A stretch of 64,000 bases of DNA from Caldilineaceae bacterium. Its GTDB lineage: Bacteria; Chloroflexota; Anaerolineae; Caldilineales; Caldilineaceae. Numbering within the stretch: position 1 is the stretch's first letter; each line of letters starts with the position of its first letter. The DNA lies in NCBI GenBank assembly GCA_022821585.1, contig JAJEDI010000032.1:1-64000 (forward strand), given 5' to 3'. Below are positions 10,536 to 58,788 of the stretch, one piece after another. The translations under genes were made by a program, and so were the position numbers. The notes under the pieces were generated by a model. The model worked only from the letters and a program-made list of their open reading frames with translations. It was not told where the DNA came from and ran no database searches.

Positions 10536-11150
10536 CTATGTGCTTGCTTCGGAGAACAGGTCACCAACGTCGACCTTGAATCCTTCCAGAAGTACAGACA
10601 GTGCCGTCTCGCCGGCGACGAACTCGCCGTGAAGCGCGTATTTCCGTCCCTGTAGAGTTAGTACGGTGATGGAGGCTTCGGTGGGATCGACGATCCAGTA
10701 TTCAGGGATCCCGGCCTGCGCGTATTCGCGGCGTTTGGTTACTTTGTCGCGTTCGGGGTCATTGGGGCTGACGATTTCCATGACGAGATCGGCGCCCTGC
10801 CAGAACTGTTCACCCAGTCTGTCTGCGTGTTCGGCGGCCATGAAGACGAGATCCGGCTCTCTGAACTTCCCTTGCCCGAGTTGAATTCGCAGGGGGGCAA
10901 ACATGACGACACCCAGGCCGCGCTCTTCGACAAATCCCGAGAGCAAGCGGTAGAGGAGTGCAACGAGTCTTTGGTGCGAGAAGGTAGGCAAGGGGAGAAC
11001 CTCCATCCGCCCGTGGGAAAACTCGGTGAGGTGGTTGGTATCGAGCGCCAGGTACTCTTCTTCGCTCCATTGGCCCTGGGCGGGAAAGAGCTGGGCGATC
11101 GCCCAAGTCAGTTCGGCTGTTTTGTCCGGTGTTGCCGTGGACAGGACCAT
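10536..11150 (-). CDS. Uma2 family protein (DUF820), copy 1
   Basis: A 204-residue protein of the Uma2 family, a PD-(D/E)XK nuclease-like fold. FREPDLVFMA near residues 97-106 and VMEIVSPND near 124-132 form the Asp...Glu-Val/Ile-x-Ser pattern, followed by RREYAQAGIPEYWIVDP. The function of Uma2 proteins is not established; they are often multicopy in Chloroflexota and cyanobacteria. It is 13 bases after the stop of a tandem paralog with near-identical C-terminal halves, so this is a recent duplication. It sits inside a metabolic operon and is probably a passenger. Confidence 0.85.
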   Translation of the reverse strand: MVLSTATPDKTAELTWAIAQLFPAQGQWSEEEYLALDTNHLTEFSHGRMEVLPLPTFSHQRLVALLYRLLSGFVEERGLGVVMFAPLRIQLGQGKFREPDLVFMAAEHADRLGEQFWQGADLVMEIVSPNDPERDKVTKRREYAQAGIPEYWIVDPTEASITVLTLQGRKYALHGEFVAGETALSVLLEGFKVDVGDLFSEAST

Positions 11151-11163
11151 TGCCTTCTTTCTT

Positions 11164-11775
11164 TCAATCTACTTCTGAGAACACGGCGGCCACTTCCACC
11201 GTGAATCGATCCAGCAGTACGGAGGTCGCGGTCTCGCCTGAGACGAACTCGCCGTGAAGCGCGTATTCCTTTCCCTGTAAGGTGAGGACGGAGATGGAGG
11301 CACCGGCGGGATCGACGATCCAGTATTCGGGGATGCCGGCCTGCGCGTATTCGCGGCGTTTGGTTACTTTGTCGCGTTCGGGGTCATTGGGGCTGACGAT
11401 TTCCATGACGAGATCGGCGCCCTGCCAGAACTTATCAGAGCGACGGTCATCATTCTCGGTGCGCATGAACAGGATATCGGGCTCTCTGAATTTACCCGGC
11501 CAGAGTTGGACGCGCATGGGAGCCAGCAGAACAGTACCAAGTTGTCCTTCACGAACAAAGTTACGCAGGAGTTCAAACAGGGCAATAATCAGTAGCTGAT
11601 GCGACTGGGTTGGCGTTGGCAGGACTTCCAACTGACCGTGGGAGAGTTCGATCAGATGATTGGTATCCAGCGCCAGGTATTCTTCCTCGCTCCAGTGGCC
11701 CTGGGCAGGGAAGAGTCGGGCGATCTCCCAGGTCAGTTCGGGCGCTTCTGCGGGTTTCTTCGTCGGGCGGGCCAT
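11164..11775 (-). CDS. Uma2 family protein (DUF820), copy 2
   Basis: A 203-residue tandem paralog of the next gene. FREPDILFMR and VMEIVSPNDPERDKVTK preserve the PD-(D/E)XK-like core, and the central 60 residues (QGADLVMEIVSPNDPERDKV onward) are almost the same in both copies down to DNA level. The first 50 residues also align (AQGHWSEEEYLALDTNHLIE). No LexA-like box precedes this copy, unlike the two Uma2 genes at 53 and 58 kb. It lies 44 bases after the alcohol dehydrogenase stop and is likely co-transcribed with it. Confidence 0.85.
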   Translation of the reverse strand: MARPTKKPAEAPELTWEIARLFPAQGHWSEEEYLALDTNHLIELSHGQLEVLPTPTQSHQLLIIALFELLRNFVREGQLGTVLLAPMRVQLWPGKFREPDILFMRTENDDRRSDKFWQGADLVMEIVSPNDPERDKVTKRREYAQAGIPEYWIVDPAGASISVLTLQGKEYALHGEFVSGETATSVLLDRFTVEVAAVFSEVD

Positions 11776-51316: not shown

Positions 51317-51889
51317 TCATCCAGATGCGCGGTCCTCGAGTTCGGCGTGCAGTCGATCAAGCCCAGACAGCAGAACCTGGAAACTTTTCGAATTGTTTCT
51401 TTCTCGCGTAAGAAGACCAGCCATCGCTTTGGCGCCGCTGACTTTCCGGAAGCCAGGGATGAGCCTCCTTAAGGCCTCGGAGGGCTGCTGCACTGCATCC
51501 GGATCGCGGAAACCCGCCCTGCGACCGATGCCTCGCAGTCTCTCGTTGTCGAAGGCTTCCGCCAGAGCGTCAGGTTCACCCAGATACCAGGCTTCCAATT
51601 GCTGGCACACGATTCTCACGAGCGTGTCAGCCCGGCCTGCTTGACGGCAAGATTGCAGAAGCCGCCTCTTCAGACGCAGACAGTCGCCGCCATCGTTGTC
51701 TCGCAGGATGACAAATCGAACGCCTGGCTCGCGCCATGCTCGCAGCTTGCGCGGGATGCTCCTATCCAGGTCGCTCTTCCCTTCGTGCACCAGGTATTCG
51801 AATACCATATTGGGGTATAGGCGGGGAAGCAGTCCAACGAGCAGGTCGCGCATGGATGCCTCTTCCAGCAAGAATACGACTCTGTTCAC
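51317..51889 (-). CDS. DUF4276-like (TOPRIM-type) protein
   Basis: A 190-residue protein resembling DUF4276: FLLEEASMRDLLVGLLPRLY (acidic pair), EYLVHEGKSDLDRSIPRKL, VILRDNDGGDCLRLKRRLL (Asp-rich metal motif) and RIVCQQLEAWYLGEPDALAE. The Glu and Asp-x-Asp pattern fits a TOPRIM-like nuclease fold. The start is GTG and overlaps the ATPase stop by four bases (GTGA). Pairs of this type with an AAA ATPase are commonly seen in defence-like islands (OLD/PARIS-like logic), but this pair's activity is not established. Confidence 0.72.
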   Translation of the reverse strand: MNRVVFLLEEASMRDLLVGLLPRLYPNMVFEYLVHEGKSDLDRSIPRKLRAWREPGVRFVILRDNDGGDCLRLKRRLLQSCRQAGRADTLVRIVCQQLEAWYLGEPDALAEAFDNERLRGIGRRAGFRDPDAVQQPSEALRRLIPGFRKVSGAKAMAGLLTRERNNSKSFQVLLSGLDRLHAELEDRASG

Positions 51890-53109
51890 TCGAGCCGGGC
51901 ACCATCGCGATCTTCTTGCCTCCAGTGCAGACCGGGCAAGTCGAATACTCCTTGTCTCCAGAGCGCGCCCGGCAGGTCGCCTTCGTGGACCAGGTTGCGC
52001 AGCAGCTCGCTCTCCGACGCCCGGCGGACCTTAGTGAAACCGTCCTCCTTGACCAGCCAGCGTATTTCGTCGAGTTCGGCGCCGTTCAGAAAGTCGGGGG
52101 AATGGGTAGACACGAAAACCTGGCCGCCGCGCTGGGCGTAGTCGTGAAACTCTTCTGCAAGCTCCCGCATCAGAGCGGGATAGAGTTGATTCTCCGGTTC
52201 TTCGACCGCCAGCAGAGGGTGTGGATTGGGGTCGTAGAGAAGGACGAGATAGGCAAACATCTTGATGGTCCCGTCCGATACATACGGGGCGATGAAGGGA
52301 TCCTGGAAGTTGTCATCCTGGAACCGAAGAACCAGCCTTCCGTCCTCGGTGGGCTTTGCTTCCACGTCACTCACGCCGGGGACGCGCTGGCGCATGGCCT
52401 GGAGTACTCTATTGAAATGCCGGGGATGGTTTTCATAGAGGTATTTCGCTACCAAAGCGACGTTTTCGCCGCGCGTGGATAGATGCTCGGCGTAACCGAA
52501 GTCTGCGCTTGGCCGCGCGTCGGCAATTTGGAAGTCGGAGATATGCCAATTCTCGATAAATTTGCGGAACTCCGAAACAATCGGAAACTCCTGGAGTTGG
52601 CCAAAGCTCTTGATTGCCAATGTGCTGGGGTCATCAAGCTTGAACTTCCTCTTTTTCTGGTCTGCGTCTTTCATAGCGGACACACCGTACTCGGACTCGT
52701 TGGTGATCACTTCGCCCTCTCCGCGGCGATTGTCGACGAAGCGCCACCCCCAGCGGCCGCCCTGCCCTTTGCGATAACTCAGCGCCTCGTGCTCCACCTC
52801 TGCACGATCTCGGGCCTGAGTTATTTTCAACTGGTATGTCGCCAGCCGACCGCCGCTCTCGCGAAACTGCAAGGTGATCTCCAGCGGCCCCGCCTCTCCG
52901 CGGGTGACCAGTTCACGATATCCACCGCGTTGCGCCACCGCTGCGGCGACGTTTTGCGTCAGGGCATCTTTTAGAAAAGTGAACACATCGAACAGCGACG
53001 ACTTGCCCGAGCCGTTTGGACCCACAACTATTGTCATGCGCGTCAGTTTATCGAGCGTGATGTCGCGAAGGCAGCGGAAGTTCCTGACGGCAATGCTTTC
53101 GATCTGCAT
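51886..53109 (-). CDS. AAA family ATPase (AAA_21/OLD-like)
   Basis: A 407-residue ABC-type ATPase of the AAA_21 group. MQIESIAVRNFRCLRDITL opens the fold, VVGPNGSGKSSLFDVFTFLK near residues 28-47 is Walker A, LLAVEEPENQLYP near 315 is Walker B, and VFVSTHSPDFLNG near 345 is the switch His region. In related systems the ATPase senses infection or DNA ends and controls a TOPRIM nuclease. Here the nuclease-like gene follows with a GTGA overlap. ATG at 53,109 fits the family N-terminus; the ORF track adds 12 residues. It starts 38 bases after a Uma2 gene. Confidence 0.82.
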   Translation of the reverse strand: MQIESIAVRNFRCLRDITLDKLTRMTIVVGPNGSGKSSLFDVFTFLKDALTQNVAAAVAQRGGYRELVTRGEAGPLEITLQFRESGGRLATYQLKITQARDRAEVEHEALSYRKGQGGRWGWRFVDNRRGEGEVITNESEYGVSAMKDADQKKRKFKLDDPSTLAIKSFGQLQEFPIVSEFRKFIENWHISDFQIADARPSADFGYAEHLSTRGENVALVAKYLYENHPRHFNRVLQAMRQRVPGVSDVEAKPTEDGRLVLRFQDDNFQDPFIAPYVSDGTIKMFAYLVLLYDPNPHPLLAVEEPENQLYPALMRELAEEFHDYAQRGGQVFVSTHSPDFLNGAELDEIRWLVKEDGFTKVRRASESELLRNLVHEGDLPGALWRQGVFDLPGLHWRQEDRDGARLE

Positions 53110-53147: not shown

Positions 53148-53729
53148 TCAGGGCCGGGAGAGAAATATCTCGTCCAGAAGGGCAGAGAATCCCTCCAACA
53201 CCGGAGAAGTCAGAGTCTGCCCCTCGGTGTAGGTAGCTCTTTCAGCGTAGCCGTCCGCGCCCAACAGTAGAACGGTGATGGTCCTGGCTTCAGGGTCCAC
53301 CAACCAGTACTCACGCACCCCATATTCGGCATACAGTTGGCGTTTGCGTGTCTCGTCGCGCTCGGCGGTGGAGTCGGAGCGGATCTCGACGAGCAGGTCG
53401 GGGGCGCCCTGGATGTTGGCAGATGTGACTATGCCGGCCCGAACTGAGGAGATGAACATCAGGTCGGGTTGGACTACGTGGGTTTCAGAAAGGACAACGT
53501 CGGTGGGGGCAAAGTAAACAACTCCCAGTTTCCTCTCTTCAACAAATGTGTCTAGCCGCGTCGCTAGTTTCATGGCTACGTGCTGATGGGCTATACCCGG
53601 GGCGGGTGGAATGAACAGTTCTCCATCCAGAAGTTCGTAGCGTTCATCTTCGGAGGTCTTCAGGTAGTCCTCGTATGTGAGTTTGGTCGTTATTGGACTG
53701 CCGTTAGGACCAAGATTAGTTCTTATCAT
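53148..53729 (-). CDS. Uma2 family protein (DUF820), copy 3
   Basis: A 193-residue Uma2 protein: TYEDYLKTSEDERYELLDGE near residues 17-36, VQPDLMFISS near 93-102 and LLVEIRSDSTAERD near 117-130 give the PD-(D/E)XK-like Asp...Glu core. ATG at 53,729 is used because the family start follows it. It is preceded by a promoter whose -10 region overlaps a GAAC-N4-GTTC palindrome, the same as before copy 4. It is directly upstream of the AAA/DUF4276 pair and may be co-transcribed with it, which would place that pair under the same control. Confidence 0.85.
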   Translation of the reverse strand: MIRTNLGPNGSPITTKLTYEDYLKTSEDERYELLDGELFIPPAPGIAHQHVAMKLATRLDTFVEERKLGVVYFAPTDVVLSETHVVQPDLMFISSVRAGIVTSANIQGAPDLLVEIRSDSTAERDETRKRQLYAEYGVREYWLVDPEARTITVLLLGADGYAERATYTEGQTLTSPVLEGFSALLDEIFLSRP

Positions 53730-53776: not shown

Positions 53777-53811
53777 GAACACATGTTCTCGTACTTGACC
53801 GGCATTGTCAA
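53777..53811 (-). promoter_or_regulatory. LexA-box-like promoter of Uma2 copy 3
   Basis: On the minus strand TTGACA, then 17 bases, then GAACATGTGTTC, a GAAC-N4-GTTC palindrome that occupies the -10 position (GAACAT). It lies 48 bases before the start codon. The Gram-positive LexA/DinR consensus is CGAAC-N4-GTTC-like. The same arrangement precedes Uma2 copy 4. Confidence 0.6.
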
Positions 53812-54019
53812 ATGAATGTTTCCTAAGGGATACAGTTAATTCTCTCACGAGTCTAGGCGCGTCTCATAAGTGGTGCATCCTGGATTTGAGGCGGGAACAG
53901 TCTGGCGGGGAAGTCGTGCCAGCGGTGGCTGGAGTTGTTTACCAGCTTTTGGAGTGACGCAGGGCAGGAGGCAGGGCGAGGAGAGTGCGGAGAGGATTGA
54001 GTGCCACAGTTTGGGTTGG

Positions 54020-54215
54020 GTGAGATTGGATTGGGGACTGGCGGGGCGTGGTCTGGCGAAGCACTTTCGACTGGGCACCTGTTACGAATATCGACACCGG
54101 GTCGGCGAGGCATGTTGTTGGCCGGGGGCGTTGCGGGGGCGGAGCCCCCGCACAAGGGAGGGCCGAATAGGCCCGACCGCCCAAAACTGCAGTGGTTAGT
54201 GGTCAGTGGTCAGAG
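54020..54215. repeat. Composite dispersed repeat, copy E
   Basis: GGCGGGGCGTGGTCTGGCG, GACACCGGGTCGGCGAGGC, GGGGGCGGAGCCCCCGCACA and hairpin GGGCC-GAATA-GGCCC (54,160-54,174), then CCGCCCAAAACTGCAGTGG. The first and last modules are absent; its tail contains TTAGTGGTCAGTGGTCAG, a short motif also seen near 6,015. Confidence 0.78.
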
Positions 54216-54228
54216 GGTGGGGAGGGGC

Positions 54229-55125
54229 TCAGCCTTTGAGACCGGTGAGGACGACGCCTTCGATGATGAAGCGCTGGACGGCGATGAAGAGGGCGAGGAT
54301 GGGGACGATGGCGAGGCTGGCGCCGGCCATGATGACGCCGTACTGGTTCCAGAATTCGCCGACGAAGGTTGCGAGGCCGACGGTGATGACGTATTTGTCG
54401 TGGCTGGAGATGACGACGAGAGGCCAGAGGAAGTCGTTCCAGTTCCACATGAAGTAGAAGGCGATGAGGGTGAAGAGGGCGGCGCGGGAGAGCGGGATGA
54501 TGATGCGGTGGAAGATGTACCACTCGCCAGCGCCGTCGATACGGGCGGCGTCGATCAGCTCTGTGGGGATGGTGTACATGAACTGGCGGAACATGAACAT
54601 GGCGTAGATTGTGAAGATTTCGGGGACGATGAGGGCGGTATAGGTATCGGCCCAGCCGACCTGGACGGTCATGAGGTAGAGGGGGATGAGATAGACTTCG
54701 AAGGGGATTATCCAGGTGCTGAGGAGGATGTAGAAGATGATGTCGCGGCCGCGGAAGACGAATTTGCCGAAGATGTAGCCGAGGAGCGCGCTGGTGTAGA
54801 TGTTGAAAATGGTCTTGATGACGCTTATGAAGGTTGTATTCCAATAGAGGCGGCCCATGTTGGCGCGGTCGAAGACGTCGATGTAGTTGGAAATCGTGGG
54901 GTTGATGGGGAAGAGACGGGGCGGGAAGGAGACGGTCTCGGCCTGGGGTTTGAAGGAGGTGCTGATCATCCAGATGAAGGGGACGACCATCAGAATGGCG
55001 CCGGCGCCCAGGACAAGGTAGTTGATCAACAGGCCGCGGCGCAGGCGCTGGAAGTCGGTTGCGCCGCGGTTGAGAGCCCGCGTATCGACCTGGCTGGGTA
55101 TACCAACAAAGTCCTGGTTAGCCAT
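54229..55125 (-). CDS. Sugar ABC transporter permease, MalG type
   Basis: A 298-residue permease with a 35-residue cytosolic tail and six membrane segments (first LVLGAGAILMVVPFIWMIST). The EAA loop is LIDAARIDGAGEWYIFHRII near residue 205. It is the last gene of a three-gene importer operon; its stop is close to repeat copy E. No ATPase gene follows. Confidence 0.92.
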   Translation of the reverse strand: MANQDFVGIPSQVDTRALNRGATDFQRLRRGLLINYLVLGAGAILMVVPFIWMISTSFKPQAETVSFPPRLFPINPTISNYIDVFDRANMGRLYWNTTFISVIKTIFNIYTSALLGYIFGKFVFRGRDIIFYILLSTWIIPFEVYLIPLYLMTVQVGWADTYTALIVPEIFTIYAMFMFRQFMYTIPTELIDAARIDGAGEWYIFHRIIIPLSRAALFTLIAFYFMWNWNDFLWPLVVISSHDKYVITVGLATFVGEFWNQYGVIMAGASLAIVPILALFIAVQRFIIEGVVLTGLKG

Positions 55126-55188
55126 GCGTTTCTCCAGAAAGAGACCAGGTCAGACAAGGGGGATGACAGCGTCGGGTTTGAAAGCAGC

Positions 55189-56106
55189 TCATAGTTCCCA
55201 GTCGACCCGTTGCAGTTTGAACTGGACGAGAGTAAGGATGAGAACGATTGCGAAGAGGACGAAGGACATGCTGGAGGCCTGGCCCATGAACATGCGCTGG
55301 AAGGCGTAGTCGTAGATATGGAGCGCCAGCACCCTGGTGGAGTCGAGCGGGCCGCCGCCGGTCATCATGTAGATAGCCTGGAAGCCGCCGCTGAAGCCGC
55401 CGATGACGCCGGTGATGAGGACGAAGGAGACGACAGGTTTGAGCAGAGGCAGTGTGATCCTGAAGGCCAGCTGGAGGCTGCTGGCGCCGTCGATTTCGGC
55501 GGCCTCGTAGTAGTCTTTGGGGATCCCTTTCAGTCCGGCGAGATAGATGATGACGGTAAAGCCGATCCCGCCCCAGATTCCCATGACGATGATGCTGGGC
55601 ATGGCCCAAGTGGTGGACTGGAGCCAGGGGACAGGTTGGATGCCCACAAAGCTGAGGAGTTGATTGAGCAGGCCGAAACGGGTCTGCAGCATCCATTTCC
55701 AGATGGTGGCGCTGGCGATAACGGAGGTCATGACGGGCAGGAAGTAGAGCAGACGCAGGAGGATGCTGCCGCGCTTGATTGGGTTGAGGATGAGAGCGAC
55801 GATGAGGGAACAGAATGCGCCGAGGAAGGTGCCGGCGAAGGTGCGGTACATGGTGTTCCACATGACTTTGTAGAAGAGCGAATCCTTGGCAAGGAGGACG
55901 TAGTTGTCGAGACCGACAAAGGGTGAGACGTTGCCGAAGAGGCTCCATTCGTGCATGCTGATGAAAAAGGAGAAGAAGATAGGGTAGAACTTGACTATGG
56001 CGTAGAAGAGGATGGTGGGAACGAGGGCAATGATGATGAAGCGGTGCTCGGCGGCGCGCAGGGTGGAGCGGCTACCTGTGAATTTCTGTGCGATATTTTG
56101 AATCAT
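55189..56106 (-). CDS. Sugar ABC transporter permease, MalF type
   Basis: A 305-residue permease beginning MIQNIAQKFTGSRSTLRAAE; the ORF track adds 21 unlikely residues, so ATG at 56,106 is used. The first membrane segment is FIIIALVPTILFYAIVKFYP and the EAA loop reads YEAAEIDGASSLQLAFRITL near residue 195. It lies 63 bases before its MalG-type partner and 316 bases after the binding-protein gene, separated by a strong hairpin. Confidence 0.92.
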   Translation of the reverse strand: MIQNIAQKFTGSRSTLRAAEHRFIIIALVPTILFYAIVKFYPIFFSFFISMHEWSLFGNVSPFVGLDNYVLLAKDSLFYKVMWNTMYRTFAGTFLGAFCSLIVALILNPIKRGSILLRLLYFLPVMTSVIASATIWKWMLQTRFGLLNQLLSFVGIQPVPWLQSTTWAMPSIIVMGIWGGIGFTVIIYLAGLKGIPKDYYEAAEIDGASSLQLAFRITLPLLKPVVSFVLITGVIGGFSGGFQAIYMMTGGGPLDSTRVLALHIYDYAFQRMFMGQASSMSFVLFAIVLILTLVQFKLQRVDWEL

Positions 56107-56422
56107 CACATCGTCTCTAAAGGGGCGTTCGCGGTGTTTTGTGCGGGGGCCGGCGAACAGATTGTGCAAAGGTGGTGCGGATTGCAGCAGAGCAGATTTG
56201 AGAGCGGACGCGGGTCACCCGGACTGGTGGCGATCCTTGCGGCCGGCGAGAGCACCGGGGCGGAATACAGGTCTCTTTCGCGAACGTCCTGCCTAGCCCT
56301 ACGGGCCAGGCAATTCGGATTCCCGGACCAGTTGAACATCAGATGTGTAACTCCCACGCCTATAGCAGGCGTGGGAGTTACACATTCGATAGATAGCCTG
56401 CAGTGCATGCCGGCTGTCCGGT
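56107..56422. other. Intra-operon gap with strong hairpin
   Basis: About 316 bases between the binding-protein stop and the MalF-type permease start. The main element is the 19-base-pair hairpin at 56,343-56,385. The rest has no gene; a TATAAT-like box was not found, so the permeases are probably read through from the binding-protein promoter. Confidence 0.6.
56343..56385. terminator. Strong intra-operon hairpin after binding protein
   Basis: ATGTGTAACTCCCACGCCT pairs perfectly (19 base pairs) with AGGCGTGGGAGTTACACAT around ATAGC. No T tract follows on either side. Placed just after the binding-protein gene, it likely protects that mRNA or partly stops transcription, giving more binding protein than permease, as the malE-malF intergenic element does. 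Confidence 0.7.
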
Positions 56423-57739
56423 CTAGACCCAATACTTTGCCAGGCCCTCGTCGATGAGCTTCTGGATTTCGGCGTCGCCGTACTCCAGGGCCTCGGCCAC
56501 CGACCGTCCCTCATTGACGATCAGATGCAGAACGTCATTTTGAACGGCGCCGGCGCGTTCGGGCACGGCGGCGTAGTTGCGTTCATGGGGATTGACTTCA
56601 GAGGCCTCTTTAAGGCCGGGTGTTTCCAGCAGCCTGGGGTCGGACATAAGGTCGGCGCGCTCGGGCACGAGCGAGATCAGTTCGCACAAGGCCCAGTAGG
56701 CATCTTTGCCGCCGTCCTTGTAGAGGAACTCCATGAACTCCCAGGTGTCGCCATCGTTTTCGGGGTGGCCGGTTACGGCAGAGATAGAGGTTACCGTGTC
56801 CTTGTAGCCATAGAGCGGGTCGGGTTCGCCGGTTGGGGTAGGCGGGTGCGAGTAGCCGATGTGGGGGTACATATCGGGATAGGTGTTGACGTACTCGCCG
56901 ACCACCCAGGTCTGTTCCTCGGTCATGGCGGCGAGACCGTTGCCGATGGAGTCGAAGTTGGGGAATCCGGAGTCCCAGACTTCGTGGACGAGGGACAGGT
57001 CGGTGATGTAGGTGAAGGCCTCATGGACTTCGGAGCTGGTCATGAGAGAGATCTGTTCATCGCCATTGTTCTGGATGACGTTGCCGCCCAGCTGATAGAT
57101 CTGGCTCAACACGGGCCATTCGCCGGTGAGGGCGAAACCGGCGCGTGAAATGGCACCTGTTCCGTCCTTTTGTGTGAGCGCTTTGGCTGCTGTGGTGAAG
57201 TCGTCCCAGGTCTTGGGTGGCGACTCCGGATCGAGGCCGGCCTCTTCGAACATCTGCTTGTTGTACATCAGGAGGGTACAGGTGGTGCCGGTGGGAAGTA
57301 CATAGCGCCCGTTGGTCTTGATGTCAAAGAGGGGATAGGCCTCTTCAAACCAGCTGGGCGGGAAGATGTCTTCAGGGAACTCAAGGACGAGATTTTCTTC
57401 GCGCATCTGGTGCATGAAGGCAAGGGAGCGCATTTTGATCATGTTCGGCCCGGTGCCGGCTGCGAGTGCTGAGTAGAGCTTTTCGACATATCCGCCGGCA
57501 ATGGACTGGACATCGACGGTGATTCGATCGTTTTGTTCAGCGAATTTGTCAGCGACGCTGCGGTAGAGATCCATGCGGATATCCCACCAGCCCCAAAGGG
57601 AAAGCTCGACCGGTTCTTCGTCGGCGGCTCCCTCCATACCGGGCGCGGCTGCGGGAACGCAGGCGGCCATGGTCAACCCGAGGCCGGTGAGACCGGCTGT
57701 TTTGAGAAACTGACGTCGGCTAGCGTTTGGCATTTTCAT
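56423..57739 (-). CDS. Sugar ABC transporter substrate-binding lipoprotein (CUT1)
   Basis: A 438-residue binding protein. MKMPNASRRQFLKTAGLTGL is a Tat-type signal and GLTMAAC the lipobox, followed by a Pro/Ala/Glu linker and VELSLWGWWDIRMDLYRSVA. AGGAGGG lies just upstream of ATG at 57,739; the ORF track begins 54 codons earlier in non-homologous sequence. It heads an operon with two permeases. The neighbouring catabolic genes do not share its strand position, so the ligand is unknown. Confidence 0.9.
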   Translation of the reverse strand: MKMPNASRRQFLKTAGLTGLGLTMAACVPAAAPGMEGAADEEPVELSLWGWWDIRMDLYRSVADKFAEQNDRITVDVQSIAGGYVEKLYSALAAGTGPNMIKMRSLAFMHQMREENLVLEFPEDIFPPSWFEEAYPLFDIKTNGRYVLPTGTTCTLLMYNKQMFEEAGLDPESPPKTWDDFTTAAKALTQKDGTGAISRAGFALTGEWPVLSQIYQLGGNVIQNNGDEQISLMTSSEVHEAFTYITDLSLVHEVWDSGFPNFDSIGNGLAAMTEEQTWVVGEYVNTYPDMYPHIGYSHPPTPTGEPDPLYGYKDTVTSISAVTGHPENDGDTWEFMEFLYKDGGKDAYWALCELISLVPERADLMSDPRLLETPGLKEASEVNPHERNYAAVPERAGAVQNDVLHLIVNEGRSVAEALEYGDAEIQKLIDEGLAKYWV

Positions 57740-57891
57740 GCTATTCCCTCCTGGAATTGGGTTGTATAGAGGTGTTGGGACATGAGGACTAATCAGACCG
57801 TTTTCCGTCTCAAATTCGACCGCCGGGAGGCAAAGAGACGGATCAGGACATTTTTCTTTTGCCATATAGTTGACATGTAGCCGGTGGGTGT

Positions 57892-57920
57892 AAGCTAACA
57901 CACGGGAAATTCATTGTCAA
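57892..57920 (-). promoter_or_regulatory. Promoter candidate of sugar importer operon
   Basis: On the minus strand a perfect TTGACA, 17 bases, then TAGCTT (three of six). It lies about 155 bases before the binding-protein start. Confidence 0.4.
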
Positions 57921-58055
57921 TGCGGTACCTCGTTTGGACACAGGTCAGTATAGAGGTGAGAGCCCGGATGTTTACCAAAAGAGTGAGCAGGCTGCGCGAT
58001 CTGTTCGGGCAGGTGGCCACCAGGGGACATTTGGTCAAGAAGGAAGGATCAGAGG

Positions 58056-58095
58056 GCACGCACAAGGGGTGCCCCTACGGGGATGTGCGGAAGGG
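58056..58095. repeat. Short GC repeat (GGGGTGCCCCTAC type)
   Basis: GCACAAGGGGTGCCCCTACG relates to the copy near 300-335 and to the first module of composite repeats B-D. It sits beside the Uma2 copy 4 stop codon. Confidence 0.6.
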
Positions 58096-58105
58096 CAGGT
58101 CCGGA

Positions 58106-58705
58106 TCAGGTGGTCATTTCCTCTGAATCAAGGTCTGGAAACAGGTCGTTCAAATTGATAAATAGGCCATGCAGCATGGGAGAATTCAGAGTCTGGCATA
58201 AAGTGTAGGTAGCTGCCTCCTCGTAGCCATTCTCGCCCAGCAATAGAACGGAGATGGTTGCGTCTTCAGGGTCGACCAGCCAGTACTCCTCAACACCACA
58301 GTCTGCATAGAGCTGACGTTTGAATGACTCATCGCGCTCGGCGGTGGAATCGGAGCGAATTTCGACGATGAGGTCGGGTGCGCCCTGGATGTTGGCGGGG
58401 GTGATGATGTCGACCCGCTCGGATGATATGAACAGCAGGTCGGGTTGGACGACGTCGGTGCGGGAGAGTACGACGTCAGTGGGGGCGAAGAAGAGATGGC
58501 CGAGTCCGCCCTCTCTGATAAAGCGAGCCATCCGCCATCCTAACTCGGCCTGAACTGACTGATGGGCTGTATTCGGAGCAGGCGGCACTATCAGAGCTCC
58601 GTCCAGAAGTTCGTAGCGTTCATCATCGGGGGTTTTCAGGTAGTCCTCGTAAGTGAGTTTGGTCGTTGCAGGACTGTTTTGAGAAACAGGTTCCGCTCTC
58701 AACAT
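58106..58705 (-). CDS. Uma2 family protein (DUF820), copy 4
   Basis: A 199-residue Uma2 protein closely related to copy 3: TYEDYLKTPDDERYELLDGA, VQPDLLFISS and LIVEIRSDSTAERDESFKRQ give the Asp...Glu core of the PD-(D/E)XK-like fold, then GVEEYWLVDPEDATISVLLL. ATG at 58,705 is used. Promoter, palindrome and leader are conserved with copy 3, so the whole unit was duplicated. No ATPase gene follows this copy. It lies between an importer operon and a sugar-acid operon, and is probably independent of both. Confidence 0.85.
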   Translation of the reverse strand: MLRAEPVSQNSPATTKLTYEDYLKTPDDERYELLDGALIVPPAPNTAHQSVQAELGWRMARFIREGGLGHLFFAPTDVVLSRTDVVQPDLLFISSERVDIITPANIQGAPDLIVEIRSDSTAERDESFKRQLYADCGVEEYWLVDPEDATISVLLLGENGYEEAATYTLCQTLNSPMLHGLFINLNDLFPDLDSEEMTT

Positions 58706-58753
58706 TGTTGCCCTCCTGTCAGAACAACTTTGACCGGCCAGAGCCGTCATCTG

Positions 58754-58788
58754 AACACATGTTCTCGTAGTTGCCCGACTTTGTCAAA
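58754..58788 (-). promoter_or_regulatory. LexA-box-like promoter of Uma2 copy 4
   Basis: TTGACA, 17 bases, then GAACATGTGTTC on the minus strand, 49 bases before the start codon: the same layout and palindrome as upstream of copy 3, though spacer bases differ at several places. Confidence 0.6.

Follow-up and report, generated by a model that had tools for sequence, protein, structure and literature searches.

The locus described here raises the question of whether two of its Uma2 genes, each preceded by a palindrome of the LexA-box type, are controlled by the SOS repressor LexA, and what such control would say about Uma2 (DUF820) proteins, for which the literature searched offers no resolved function. 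The window, meaning the whole 64,000-nucleotide stretch of DNA that was analysed, belongs to a metagenome-assembled genome (MAG) of Caldilineaceae (Chloroflexota) that has 102 contigs totalling 5.49 Mb and is 94% complete. The relatives compared are likewise MAGs of Caldilineaceae, Chloroflexota, and the genome-wide scans of the window's own genome were made by pattern only. Cyanobacteria, Thermus and this genus all have expanded Uma2 families, with 24 copies in the window's genome.

Promoters of Uma2 copies 3 and 4

The two genes and their surroundings contain the following features.

51317..51889, minus strand: DUF4276 protein (PADLOC HEC-01 partner), with a GTG start and a 4-nt overlap with the stop codon of the AAA gene
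51886..53109, minus strand: AAA_21 ATPase (PADLOC HEC-01/AriA-like), 38 nt behind Uma2 copy 3
53148..53729, minus strand: Uma2 copy 3 (PF05685; PADLOC PDC-S03), ATG at 53729
53777..53788, minus strand: candidate LexA-type operator GAACATGTGTTC of Uma2 copy 3 (from sequence, genome-wide count and promoter alignment)
53806..53811, minus strand: -35 element TTGACA of Uma2 copy 3, 17 nt upstream of the operator
58106..58705, minus strand: Uma2 copy 4 (PF05685; PADLOC PDC-S03), ATG at 58705, AGGAGG upstream
58753..58764, minus strand: candidate LexA-type operator GAACATGTGTTC of Uma2 copy 4 (from sequence, genome-wide count and promoter alignment)
58782..58787, minus strand: -35 element TTGACA of Uma2 copy 4, 17 nt upstream of the operator

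On the minus strand, the copy 3 promoter reads TTGACA (53811-53806), a 17-nt spacer ATGCCGGTCAAGTACGA and then GAACATGTGTTC (53788-53777), and the copy 4 promoter reads TTGACA (58787-58782), a 17-nt spacer AAGTCGGGCAACTACGA and then GAACATGTGTTC (58764-58753). This is the layout given in the initial annotation, with exactly 17 bases between TTGACA and one and the same 12-mer, and it is borne out at both genes. The spacers differ at 4 of 17 positions while the -35 element and the 12-mer are identical, as had also been described. From each box it is 48 bases to the likely start codon (53729 for copy 3, 58705 for copy 4), within the claimed 48-49; in-frame ATGs also occur further upstream, without conservation in relatives. 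The palindrome had been placed over the -10 element. The box does occupy the expected -10 position, but the match itself is poor, GAACAT agreeing with TATAAT at only 3/6 bases, and a consensus promoter scan made no call at these -35/box promoters. The arms, GAAC-N4-GTTC, form the known LexA box of the Gram-positive type (B. subtilis, M. tuberculosis; PMC3323433), in agreement with the annotation.

Copies 3 and 4 are paralogues (64% identical) and their promoters are of common descent, so the promoter pair alone is weak evidence. The weight of the evidence lies in the conservation across species and in the match to recA.

The box at recA, lexA and other repair genes

Both recA and lexA are present in the genome, with RecA encoded on C36 and C78 and a single lexA on C90. 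The LexA protein matches TIGR00498 (172.7 bits), contains DNA-binding and S24 peptidase domains with the Ala-Gly, Ser and Lys residues present, and aligns with solved LexA structures across the cleavage site and the catalytic region. Its recognition helix, SSTSVV(K/N)YNL, is common to the genus and most class relatives.

Exact GAACATGTGTTC occurs at three sites in the 5.49-Mb genome against 0.39 expected, one in each of the two Uma2 promoters and one at recA. A different box at recA had been named beforehand as evidence against LexA control; what is found at the recA of C36 is the identical 12-mer, ~140 bp upstream of the reading frame and inside the TTGGCA-N18-TATAAT spacer. In 91 Mb of sequence from 17 genomes of the genus, GAACATGTGTTC has 25 sites, 10 at recA and 15 at Uma2 promoters, with none elsewhere in the 91 Mb, where ~5 would be expected by chance, and with no occurrence of the reversed control pattern. 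In the SOS-type recA promoters of the genus, GAAC-N4-GTTC stands directly before TATAAT with the centre GTAT, ATAT, ACAT, GCAT, ATGT or ATGC, a variation that is expected for a LexA site; the sole exception is the recA of G006, a near-match (GTACATATGTTC) with one arm mismatch. The second recA of the genus never has a perfect GAAC-N4-GTTC in its promoter.

The box that was to be looked for before lexA takes a modified form. In the window's genome, the lexA promoter holds GCACAGATGTTC in the spacer from TTGACA to TATAAT, and a second site, GAACATTCGTGC, lies 30 bp upstream; both deviate from GAAC-N4-GTTC by one base. All nine lexA promoters examined in the genus keep this one-mismatch pair, and a varied form of it is present in eight from other genera of the family. 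Among class-level relatives, the box at lexA is perfect in 14/14. The candidate lexA operators of the family (L028, L078, L082-L103) come as pairs of sites with a spacing of ~30 bp; one arm of each site deviates, and the deviant forms (GAAC-N4-GTGC and GCAC-N4-GTTC) are conserved as such.

In the window's genome, uvrA has GAACAGATGTTC ~100 bp upstream. Sites of the box that fell within coding sequence were discounted as likely chance matches. The pattern TTGACA-N2..20-GAACN4GTTC has 66 sites in the genus among the matches listed, compared with 4 control matches, and those inspected stand before recA and Uma2 and, in many cases, before a gene for an impB/mucB-type polymerase or for a radical-SAM protein. 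The latter is repair-like, related to TIGR03916, and scores below that family's cut-off. Other matches include ones in coding regions and ones with no assigned gene. Judged by the shared box, the recA, uvrA, impB/mucB-type polymerase and radical-SAM genes are a recognisable SOS regulon, which outlines the GAAC-N4-GTTC regulon of an uncultured Caldilineaceae genus.

Two minor observations concern further boxes. A DUF5131 gene of a relative (G001 C225; L274, 1000-1849) has a promoter of Uma2-like layout, TTTGACAA-N15-GAGAACATGCGTTC, with the centre ATGC. At L044:1501-1512, a box (GAACAAACGTTC/GAACGTTTGTTC) lies just past TATACT and downstream of an RNase-J-like gene at a contig end, where the gene that it would control is cut off.

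The two recA genes (G000 C36 and C78, L030 and L029; relatives L206-L233), only one of which has the SOS box, have unrelated promoters and ends, while their core is 93-100% DNA-identical within each of the six genomes compared. The copies share species-specific substitutions, which suggests gene conversion, and their identity breaks several assemblies inside recA.

Conservation of the box in one Uma2 clade

Orthologues of the two Uma2 genes keep 12/12 box bases in 15 of 18 cases. In a footprint alignment of these 15 boxed promoters from nine genomes, over a 192-bp stretch, the 12 box columns are invariant and the -35 element is 98% conserved, while the other columns have a mean of 63%. Compared pairwise, the promoters are on average 36% identical upstream, 68% in the 17-nt spacer and 62% downstream. 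The three orthologues without the box are G014 copy 4, G003 copy 3 and G014 copy 3. At the two copy 3 genes the upstream DNA is unrelated and has been replaced, and the intact parts of the operon that follows are 86-98% identical. At G014 copy 4 (L106) the box is destroyed and the ATG is now AAG, with the reading frame still open; possibly the start has shifted to TTG, or the gene is decaying. Most comparisons show the Uma2 copies under purifying selection (dN/dS mostly 0.14-0.37).

Box conservation is limited to these genes. In the window's genome, GAAC-N4-GTTC is found within 500 bp upstream of 2/24 Uma2 genes, copies 3 and 4 only, and the chance of a box within 150 bp at 2/24 Uma2 genes is P ~0.0009. 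The proposal to look before other Uma2 genes had a divided outcome: the box is absent at the remaining 22/24 in this genome and present in most of the genus orthologues of copies 3 and 4. The window also contains tandem Uma2 copies 1 and 2 (10536-11775), with no LexA-like box upstream. Among 79 Uma2 relatives from public genomes, the box was found in the Caldilineaceae ones only, and a search of 298 class genomes for -35/box promoters with this arrangement found none at Uma2 genes beyond the genus. As neither the 22 other Uma2 genes nor the Uma2 relatives examined in other genera and phyla have the box, SOS control would be a property of one Uma2 clade that duplicated, not of Uma2 proteins in general. 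This clade would be a new member of the SOS regulon and no new kind of system.

Could the shared promoter be an ordinary one, without regulatory role, that two recent paralogues have kept by descent? Copies 3 and 4 do belong to one clade and inherited their promoters along with the genes, but the footprint contradicts this explanation, which we consider most improbable: the 12-mer is fully conserved in all 15 promoters while their upstream, spacer and downstream segments have diverged. A repressor specific to Uma2, with a fortuitous identity to the recA box, is a somewhat less remote alternative and still an unlikely one. What speaks for it is that the Uma2 box has an invariant centre, ATGT, and conserved flanks, with GA preceding and A following the box, whereas the recA boxes vary. 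Because the Uma2 centre never varies while that of recA does, something besides LexA arm contacts must constrain it, and the frozen ATGT may reflect a double duty as -10 element and operator. Against a separate repressor stand the confinement of the 12-mer to recA and Uma2 promoters although about five sites are expected by chance in 91 Mb, the arms shared with recA, uvrA, the polymerase and the radical-SAM genes, and the matching promoter layout of the G001 DUF5131 gene, with its ATGC centre.

Together, the box, its position, its conservation, its sharing with recA, uvrA, the polymerase gene and, in one-mismatch form, lexA, and the presence of LexA suggest that Uma2 copies 3 and 4 are very probably under LexA control. 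The weak -10 hexamer, the three orthologues without the box, the unvarying centre at Uma2 and the imperfect arms of the lexA boxes speak against it. We propose the following model. In both Uma2 promoters, GAACATGTGTTC, which covers the -10 position, would serve as the operator for LexA. In undamaged cells, LexA would occupy the operator and cover the -10 region, so that polymerase is blocked and the promoter is shut. RecA filaments on damaged or foreign single-stranded DNA would then lead to self-cleavage of LexA, upon which Uma2 copy 4 and the Uma2-AAA-DUF4276 operon would be expressed alongside recA, uvrA, the impB/mucB-type polymerase and other repair genes. A recA-type switch at two Uma2 genes thus predicts that DNA damage switches them on.

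Predicted products and a possible defence role

The two Uma2 proteins have full-length PF05685 matches of 131.1 and 113.1 bits (gathering cut-off 27) and match the solved Uma2 structures PDB 9y1l, 6okh, 1wdj and 3ot2 in sequence. DUF820 has been assigned to the PD-(D/E)XK superfamily (PMC1913061). In 17 Uma2 sequences, D77, D89, D111, E115 and K129 are invariant. The restriction-endonuclease-like fold and the conserved acidic residues lead us to predict a nuclease, and the product of each gene would most likely be a damage-induced one. In their full-length Pfam match, expanded paralogy, structure match and conserved residues, the two proteins resemble the Uma2/DUF820/COG4636 family (PF05685) at large, from which they differ in their LexA box, as most Uma2 genes (22/24 here) show none.

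Copy 3 leads an operon in the order Uma2-AAA ATPase-DUF4276. The AAA/DUF4276 pair follows in close succession, as annotated at the outset, with a 38-nt gap and then the 4-nt overlap. The adjacent ATPase and DUF4276 genes match the HEC-01 models of PADLOC at 529.3 and 188.5 bits, the ATPase also matches the AriA and AbiLi models, and PADLOC lists Uma2 as the defence candidate PDC-S03. The pair resembles OLD-like ATPase-nuclease defence pairs. Unlike HEC-01 and PARIS (AriA), the present operon starts with a Uma2 gene under a LexA-type promoter. Four relatives that have the box show the same three-gene order, as do two that lack it, one of the latter with a broken DUF4276.

It is tempting to speculate that this is a LexA-armed defence operon, in which a Uma2 nuclease, an OLD/PARIS-like ATPase and DUF4276 are held off by LexA and freed when phage or DNA damage triggers the SOS response, while another Uma2 gene, standing alone, has the identical operator; we offer this full picture tentatively. 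Nuclease activity and a defence role are both less certain than LexA control. If true, the picture would give Chloroflexota a class of defence genes whose expression is tied to the SOS response. Under the same LexA control, the Uma2 proteins could instead be nucleases of DNA repair or genome processing, with AAA/DUF4276 a passenger inserted downstream of copy 3, which is a serious possibility though we would not assume it. The boxed copy 4 stands alone in 9/10 genomes, G005 has a boxed copy 3 without AAA/DUF4276, G002 has AAA/DUF4276 at 73-79% identity with no recognised Uma2 alongside, and the locus is stable in synteny and not island-like. A repair role stays plausible because of this stable locus and the stand-alone copy 4. 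Against it, the 24 Uma2 genes per genome and the way copy 3 has come and gone resemble accessory or defence genes more than core repair, and PADLOC has entries for both Uma2 (PDC-S03) and AAA/DUF4276 (HEC-01). With the AAA/DUF4276 pair, defence is somewhat more likely than routine repair, because of the HEC-01 partner and the gain and loss of copy 3.

The proposed regulon shares with the Gram-positive LexA/SOS regulon the operator arms, boxes within sigma-70-type promoters, a LexA with an S24 peptidase domain and the core targets recA, uvrA, a Y-family-type polymerase and possibly lexA. It differs in its Caldilineaceae (Chloroflexota) host, in lexA boxes with one mismatch, in the box at -10 at Uma2 rather than between -35 and -10, and in having Uma2 and HEC-01-like genes as targets, which were not found in the literature searched. 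Searches of that literature, which is incomplete, on Uma2/DUF820 with LexA and on LexA in Chloroflexi turned up no mention of LexA control of Uma2 or of HEC-01-like genes. The phage defence AbpAB is also coupled to DNA damage, but mitomycin C activates it independently of RecA and LexA (PMC10732053), whereas the coupling here would be transcriptional, via LexA. Membership of a Uma2 clade in the SOS regulon beside recA would provide a testable condition (DNA damage) and a partner set (AAA/DUF4276) for the function of Uma2.

A scan of viral contigs with Uma2 copy 4 returned no relative, and a viral origin was set aside. The two Uma2 genes are separated by a sugar ABC transporter that is conserved in the genus, and the consensus scan places a promoter-like site before its binding-protein gene, at a frequency no more than chance.
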